Shown here: positions 3,748-45,895 of the stretch, in pieces
How the letters are laid out: every line of letters begins with the position of its first letter
How positions within the stretch are numbered: the first letter of the stretch is position 1
DNA from: Phytohabitans flavus
GTDB taxonomy: Bacteria > Actinomycetota > Actinomycetes > Mycobacteriales > Micromonosporaceae
Length of the DNA: 64,000 nt
NCBI RefSeq assembly: GCF_011764545.1
Contig: NZ_AP022870.1
Location: 7,570,001-7,634,000 of the forward strand
Direction: 5' to 3'
Made by a program: the position numbers and the translations under genes
The notes under the pieces: generated by a model
The model's input: only the letters and a program-made list of their open reading frames with translations
What the model was told of the DNA's origin: nothing
The model's database searches: none

Positions 3748-4254
3748 ATGGCGGTGACGATCCGGTCGTACCGGCCCGGCGATCACAGCGCCGGCCGGCG
3801 GTTGTGGGTCGAGTTGGCCGAGCGGCACCGGGTGCTCTACAACGACCCCGGCTTCGGCGGCGCCGACCCCGGTGCGGCCTTCGAGGACTATCTGACCCGG
3901 TTGGACCTGTCCGGCATGTGGGTCGCCGACCACGGCGAAGACGGTGTCGTGGGGCTTGTGGGCCTCATCATGAAAGGCCGGGCCGGCGAGGTGGAGCCGG
4001 TCGTGGTGACCGAGTCCCGCCGCGGCCAGGGCATCGGCCGCGCGCTGCTCGAGCATGTCGCGGACGAGGCGCGCCGGCGCGGGCTGACGTCCCTGACGAT
4101 CTCCCCGGAGTCGCGCAATGTGGACGCGATCCGGAGCTTGCACGCGGCTGGGTACGACGTGCTCTCCGCGCTCCAGCTCACGCTCGATCTTGGCCGGCGG
4201 GAGCAGGTCGGGCGCCAGGACATTGATATACATGAGCTTCGATTTAAGTCCTGA
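3748..4254 (+). CDS. GNAT family N-acetyltransferase
   Basis: Single-domain acetyl-CoA-dependent acetyltransferase of 168 residues. The acetyl-CoA loop is ESRRGQGIGRALLEHV (R/Q-x-x-G-x-G/A type), with EVEPVVV before it and AAGYDVLSALQLTL as the C-terminal strand. It is divergent from the fructosamine kinase gene with a 59-base gap. The ATG at 3748 starts the domain exactly (AVTIRSYRPGD); an imperfect -10 (TAAGCA) is seven bases upstream. The substrate cannot be told from sequence. Confidence 0.9.
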   Translation: MAVTIRSYRPGDHSAGRRLWVELAERHRVLYNDPGFGGADPGAAFEDYLTRLDLSGMWVADHGEDGVVGLVGLIMKGRAGEVEPVVVTESRRGQGIGRALLEHVADEARRRGLTSLTISPESRNVDAIRSLHAAGYDVLSALQLTLDLGRREQVGRQDIDIHELRFKS

Positions 4255-4275
4255 GCTGCCCAGCTACTGAGCGTG

Positions 4276-4305
4276 CCTGTGGATAACCCGCGTGTTATCC
4301 ACAGG
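4276..4305. other. Inverted pair of consensus DnaA-box sequences
   Basis: CCTGTGGATAAC at 4276-4287 and its exact complement GTTATCCACAGG at 4294-4305 flank a six-base spacer. Each arm contains a full TTATCCACA DnaA box, in opposite orientations. It lies between the acetyltransferase and DUF4192 genes. It could be a DnaA binding or titration site, an operator, or only a transcription-terminating hairpin; no T-run follows, which weighs against an intrinsic terminator. Confidence 0.6.
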
Positions 4306-4345
4306 GTCTACTGATCTCCCCCTGGTCACCGCCACGCTCCTCCGC

Positions 4346-45828: not shown

Positions 45829-45895
45829 TGCACCGTCGATGGAGACCTAAGGCGCGAGTTGTGAACGACCTGTGGAGAACCGCGTCAGGCATCGA

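Follow-up and report, generated by a model that had tools for sequence, protein, structure and literature searches.

Conserved DnaA-type boxes form a probable DnaA-responsive control element upstream of DUF4192 genes in Phytohabitans flavus and other actinobacteria

A 64-kb stretch of the Phytohabitans flavus chromosome (positions 7,570,001-7,634,000 of a single 9.607-Mb contig; hereafter the window) carries a facing pair of DnaA boxes upstream of a gene encoding a DUF4192 protein. We propose that this site controls the DUF4192 promoter from upstream, and that it is probably bound by DnaA and couples the gene to the initiation of replication. As judged from sequence comparisons, the palindrome in the window is one local version of a DnaA-box promoter that is widely conserved and linked to the gene. 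Because the boxes are linked to the gene and their spacing is conserved, transcription control by DnaA is preferred to both a datA/DARS-like site and a hairpin. These were among the options raised in a preliminary description of this DNA; a third, control of DUF4192, is strongly supported by the conservation of the boxes and by their spacing to the predicted promoter. From this arrangement we infer DnaA binding, leaderless transcription, a direction of control and coupling to the cell cycle at DUF4192.

The preliminary description had reported two exact TTATCCACA boxes that face each other across eight bases within a perfect 12-base inverted repeat, and we confirmed this arrangement (Table 1). 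The two boxes are the only exact copies of TTATCCACA in the window, with one further site at a single mismatch located at 45871, 41 kb from the pair. The 9,607,004-base genome holds 33 exact copies, compared to 3 for the reversed control, and 114 matches to TTRTCCACA, compared to 18. The facing pair is unique in the 9.6-Mb genome, even when the boxes are relaxed and 4-14 bases are allowed between them, and the reversed control pattern of the pair had zero matches genome-wide. Random placement of 33 boxes would be expected to yield approximately 0.0003 exact facing pairs; the facing pair exceeds chance.

Table 1. Features of the DUF4192 upstream region (window positions) and of the ThiF/TOMM-like locus (locus and genome positions).
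Feature	Coordinates	Strand	Remarks
Distal DnaA box TTATCCACA	4278-4286	-	Begins 68 bases upstream of the DUF4192 ATG; oriented away from the gene
Proximal DnaA box TTATCCACA	4295-4303	+	Begins 51 bases upstream of the DUF4192 ATG; oriented toward the gene; conserved element
Perfect 12-base inverted repeat	4276-4305	.	6-base centre; holds both boxes
Inverted-repeat arms	4276-4287 and 4294-4305		CCTGTGGATAAC, centre CCGCGT, GTTATCCACAGG
GNAT acetyltransferase gene	3748-4254	+	Upstream neighbour; stop 21 bases before the inverted repeat
DUF4192 gene, 341 aa	4346-5371	+	PF13830, E 2.6e-86; putative target
Putative -10 element CACGCT (xANNNT)	4333-4338	+	13 bases before the DUF4192 ATG; would imply a leaderless transcript
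ThiF/TOMM-like locus, P. flavus (G000)	L102:1-2001 = 6,767,400-6,769,400		735 kb from dnaA

Conservation in relatives had been set beforehand as part of the test on which the reading would stand or fall. We ran it, and the boxes upstream of DUF4192 are conserved. In 46 of 59 named DUF4192 loci, the 400 bp upstream contain one or more boxes that match TTATCCACA or TTGTCCACA with one mismatch at most; three of the remaining 13 have almost no upstream DNA and ten are copies that are 43-46% identical. The protein itself shares 90% identity with its P. suffuscus counterpart. Of 150 genomes sampled from the window's family, 146 carry DUF4192 and 147 carry dnaA, and 77 DUF4192 genes of the family lie within 200 kb of dnaA (near copies). 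A DnaA-type box of the form [TC][TC][AGC]TCCACA was found within 350 bp upstream of 75 of these 77 genes, compared to 3 of 77 when the upstream DNA was reversed. The strict form TTRTCCACA was present in 50, two or more boxes in 67 and a facing box pair in 47, and each of these three patterns had a reversed control of 0. By comparison, boxes were found in just 2 of 20 distant or second copies, a control set made up of 10 copies at least 200 kb from dnaA and 10 that were hand-picked from other contigs of near-copy genomes; the two with boxes (G046 and G004) are both approximately 0.3 Mb from dnaA. A count over 41 named loci (of 59; ten copies without boxes, three loci without upstream DNA and five others with boxes were excluded) gave a box density of 7.7 per kb for the 250 bp before DUF4192 and 0.07 per kb elsewhere.

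The arrangement of the boxes is more variable than their presence. Thirteen of the 77 near copies, counting the window, carry an exact facing TTATCCACA pair before the gene, with gaps that range from 5 to 29 bases. The 8-base gap is found in 22 of the 77, and among these the window alone has an exact proximal box. When the window was aligned with 23 named loci that have an 8-base gap, the proximal box read TCRTCCACA in 23 of the 24 sequences and the distal box read TTRTCCACA in 21; in relatives the proximal box is often TCGTCCACA. The distal box can be absent, in direct orientation, 1 base away or 28-29 bases away. We rejected the idea that the conserved unit is a palindromic operator, because the distal box differs in presence, orientation and gap. 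The unit that these comparisons identify as conserved is a gene-facing DnaA-type box, not the palindrome.

The gene-facing box is also found at favoured distances from the start codon. With the nearest ATG taken as the start, the box begins at -49 to -51 or at -58 to -64 in 65 of 72 near copies; when the start was picked for carrying xANNNT, a choice decided after the nearest-ATG result had been seen, the same two positions accounted for 72 of 72. Five of the 77 (G149, G139, G020, G070 and G067) had no start or no gene-facing box and fall outside this count. The two positions are about one helical turn apart, and the box distances share a helical phase with R 0.81 for 43 distinct values in the family, whose sequences are related by descent. 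Furthermore, 69 of 76 starts are preceded by xANNNT at -12 to -14, compared to between 0 and 14 of 76 in nine other three-base bins, a pattern that suggests the layout of a leaderless promoter. Leaderless promoters are common in actinobacteria. A promoter scan identified neither a -35 consensus nor a sigma-70-type promoter at the site. Separately, a TACNNT-like motif lies just upstream of the box pair (window 4260-4275; alignment positions -13 to -8) in Micromonospora and Phytohabitans; it was rejected as the DUF4192 promoter and is missing from both Dactylosporangium rows of the alignment.

We extended the comparison to 60 hand-picked DUF4192 genes (58 genomes) from other families of the class. 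A box was present within 450 bp of 42 of these genes, 25 of them with the strict form, compared to 1 of 60 in the reversed control; 18 of the 60 had no box. In 29 of the 42, the box is located at -48 to -51 or -58 to -64 before an xANNNT-carrying start, and in 28 of 42 when the nearest such start is used. The other 13 boxed genes are off both positions, and the class set taken alone shows a less marked helical phase (R 0.57 for 20 distinct values). Family f2 belongs to the same order as the window, and two of its genomes carry just TTCTCCACA, at -74. In family f19, 9 of 10 genomes have a box at -48 to -50, and in four of its genomes (G167, G260, G281 and G206) DUF4192 is approximately 1.9-2.4 Mb from dnaA. 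Across f19 and f20 genomes this distance is approximately 1.5-2.8 Mb, with circular distance assumed for f20. Since the boxes are kept in f19 where DUF4192 is megabases from dnaA, they appear to belong to the gene. Closeness to oriC is a feature of the window's family, and the boxes are, on the evidence of these comparisons, gene-linked and not place-linked.

The place of the site on the chromosome bears on the alternative that comes closest to surviving, a datA/DARS-like or DnaA-titrating locus near oriC that would store or modulate DnaA, and for which chromosomal place and not the neighbouring gene would matter. A DnaA domain is encoded at 7,503,417-7,503,899 on the same contig, which puts the box pair approximately 70 kb from dnaA and oriC. 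Thus, the earlier statement that the pair is far from any replication gene is true inside the window but does not hold at the scale of the genome. Copies of TTATCCACA are enriched in this region, with 10 of the 33 within 75 kb compared to 0.5 expected, and with 6 of 26 when copies are counted as separate loci without oriC (binomial P 2.5e-6). Both TTATCCACA and TTGTCCACA are present in the P. flavus genome between dnaA and the gene beyond it, which by eye we take to be rpmH. DUF4192 is less than 200 kb from dnaA in 77 of the 87 family copies placed on a dnaA-bearing contig. Of these 77, 60 share one side of dnaA at a distance of 67-100 kb, and 52 of the 60 share the orientation as well; another 11 lie on the opposite side, Dactylosporangium genomes included. 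These placements drew on the 150 DUF4192 matches listed, out of a larger total, with 87 placed relative to dnaA and 63 unplaced, 10 of which served as controls. The distance of the site from dnaA, the enrichment of TTATCCACA near oriC and the 77 of 87 placements would suit a titrating locus. However, the site has two boxes, not a cluster of more than two, and the boxes sit at favoured distances from the start codon, follow the gene even where it is megabases from oriC, and are lacking in second copies on other contigs (ten hand-picked cases). We therefore rejected a role set by place alone, as the enrichment near oriC is real yet the boxes stay with the gene, and we consider the datA/DARS-like reading unlikely.

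In the reading that we prefer, control of DUF4192 transcription by DnaA, the protein would occupy both boxes upstream of the gene. The proximal box would lie immediately before the -35 region and keep a constant helical face with respect to the putative leaderless promoter, and from there DnaA would act on RNA polymerase. Transcription of DUF4192 would then track the amount or the nucleotide state of DnaA, tying the gene to replication initiation. We consider activation somewhat likelier than repression, because the proximal box is upstream of the predicted core promoter and at two positions one helical turn apart. The TCRTCCACA proximal box is probably weaker than the TTRTCCACA distal box, and on this basis we hypothesize that binding on the promoter side could depend on DnaA-ATP and vary through the cell cycle. 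The P. flavus DnaA protein has GGRDHTTV in its C-terminal DNA-binding domain, presumably the segment that reads the box, as in other DnaA proteins. DnaA is established as an activator or repressor of promoters (PMC8203912), and domain I of an actinomycete DnaA is reported to form a dimer (PMC13270200), a property that would suit a facing box pair.

Several features count against DnaA control. E. coli DnaA in vivo favours pairs of boxes that are mostly 2-3 bp apart (PMC11317965), and the pair in the window is facing and 8 bases apart, although the E. coli spacing is a preference and not a general definition. In the 8-base-gap sequences the proximal box is, in all but one of the 24, TCRTCCACA and not the canonical box. 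The promoter scan gave no -35 consensus or sigma-70-type promoter, 13 of the 42 boxed genes outside the family are off both positions and 18 of the 60 are box-less, the class set has the weaker helical phase, and the conserved boxes of a ThiF-like gene, described below, face away from it. We considered in this light whether the boxes could be read by another transcription factor with a DnaA-box-like site and the same promoter logic. Many proximal boxes are TCGTCCACA, and a comparable layout stands before a varied set of other genes, which would fit such a factor. Against this, the boxes in the window and many of those in relatives are exact DnaA boxes, the same as those between dnaA and the presumed rpmH, a DnaA with the presumed box-reading segment is encoded in the genome, and a search of the open-licence literature returned no such factor. 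We judge this reading to be slightly less probable even than a titrating locus.

Least probable by far is that the site is simply a hairpin, as had been suggested, acting as a terminator of the GNAT gene or as an RNA or DNA structure: as DNA, the window strand has a folding energy of -12 kcal/mol (z -4.5 versus shuffles), and 13 of the 77 near copies, counting the window, have exact facing pairs with 10-15-base arms, but the inner pairs are broken in all 24 of the 8-base-gap sequences except the window, covariation was reached by 243 of 500 shuffles, the scan found no terminator-like site, there was neither a T tract nor support for the stem from compensatory changes, an Rfam search returned no match, and the arms are the boxes themselves, which have gaps of 5-29 bases and in other relatives are direct or single.

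The DUF4192 site resembles several known systems. Like the DnaA-controlled promoters of E. coli nrdA, polA, dnaA and mioC and of B. subtilis sda, it has upstream boxes, usually more than one, that are tied to a putative promoter; as in DnaA-regulated promoters generally, one or more boxes lie in the promoter region and the arrangement is kept with the gene, in 75 of the 77 near copies and in 42 of the 60 genes from other families. It differs from these promoters in that its boxes may be facing, direct or single and stand at two distances related by the helical turn, its start is probably leaderless, its hosts are actinobacteria and its target is uncharacterised. The E. coli DnaA sites described in PMC11317965, mostly pairs 2-3 bp apart, likewise differ from these facing, direct and single boxes. 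The E. coli loci datA, DARS1 and DARS2 share with the site DnaA boxes outside oriC but have more boxes and are not set apart, as this site is, by a conserved spacing to a promoter. The DnaA-box clusters outside oriC in Streptomyces (as cited in PMC4585315) and Bacillus share with it exact boxes outside as well as near oriC in Gram-positive bacteria, and differ from it in that the DUF4192 site has two boxes, is gene-linked and is also found far from oriC. DnaA-controlled promoters are thus already known as a kind; DUF4192 as a target, and its conservation, were not found in the open-licence literature. Genome-wide DnaA binding has been mapped in E. coli (PMC11317965) and in B. subtilis (PMC4447404), and no such map for an actinomycete was found in the open-licence literature. 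A class-wide promoter with DnaA boxes at preferred positions is a directly testable target. Its design could reveal how DnaA acts on RNA polymerase, an action described in PMC11317965 as poorly understood, and a DnaA-box promoter is a clue to the function of DUF4192.

The predicted structure of the DUF4192 protein (pLDDT 87) offers a further view of the gene. A Foldseek search with this model returned RadC as its best match (E 0.009) and nothing at E 0.001 or better. The N-terminal domain aligned to Chlorobium tepidum RadC by VIA-align with Z 10.9 and 2.6 A over 112 residues, and the helical C-terminal half is TPR-like over approximately residues 216-312 (Z up to 6.8, within the range of common helical arrangements). 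A sequence search found no solved relative (best E 0.1), and NCBIfam assigns no family to the protein. The RadC-like fold of the model does not indicate a function. In PMC10494377, Arthrobacter and Paenarthrobacter plasmids are described as carrying DNA repeats 5' of DUF4192, DprA and ParB genes, which offers a hint toward DNA maintenance; nothing beyond this paper was found to name DUF4192 in the open-licence literature.

To look for other genes with upstream boxes, we searched 15 hand-picked genomes for TTATCCACA followed by 26-42 bases, xANNNT, 6 or 7 bases and ATG. The pattern had 23 matches in 13 of the 15 genomes, compared to 2 matches for the control. Six of the 23 were DUF4192 genes, and the others include a gene in three f20 genomes that we take to be YgjP-like (NCBIfam has no family for this protein, L271) and a ThiF/TOMM-like gene, so labelled from a sub-threshold TIGR03882 match of the P. 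flavus copy (Table 1). The ThiF-like gene was matched in 55 of 61 genomes, and in each of the 30 best-matching loci (L294-L323) boxes lie in the 300 bp before the gene, with three in 20 loci, two in 7 and one in 3. These boxes are typically found at approximately -104, -83 and -51, compared to a density of 0.10 per kb elsewhere, and unlike the proximal box of DUF4192 every one of them points away from the gene. The ThiF/TOMM-like gene is a probable second DnaA-controlled promoter by this sequence pattern, and its boxes support a putative regulon, though not one with a single geometry. Taken together, these observations raise the possibility, which we hold tentatively and place a little short of an even chance, of a small conserved actinomycete DnaA regulon with leaderless promoters and helically related boxes that would comprise DUF4192, the ThiF/TOMM-like gene with its other box orientation and a few others, and in which DUF4192, with its RadC-like domain and TPR-like repeats, would be an unrecognised replication or genome-maintenance factor.

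Several further sites in the P. flavus genome (G000) were observed. Six PF00308 hits of equal score (30.6 bits), at 102648, 1094241, 1281135, 1628797, 5543361 and 8260290, are, at a guess, copies of one IstB-type insertion-sequence ATPase. Upstream of gyrA (L097:2810-5332; approximately 7,495,300), TTATCCACA and TTGTCCACA are located 77 and 46 bases before the GTG start. Finally, TTATCCACA is found 60-90 bases before an RcpC/CpaB-like gene that scores below the family cut-off (L101, 6.99 Mb), a WXG100 gene (L105, 7.98 Mb), a ParA-like gene with weak matches (L106, 8.00 Mb) and an HTH-GNAT gene (L107, 8.05 Mb).
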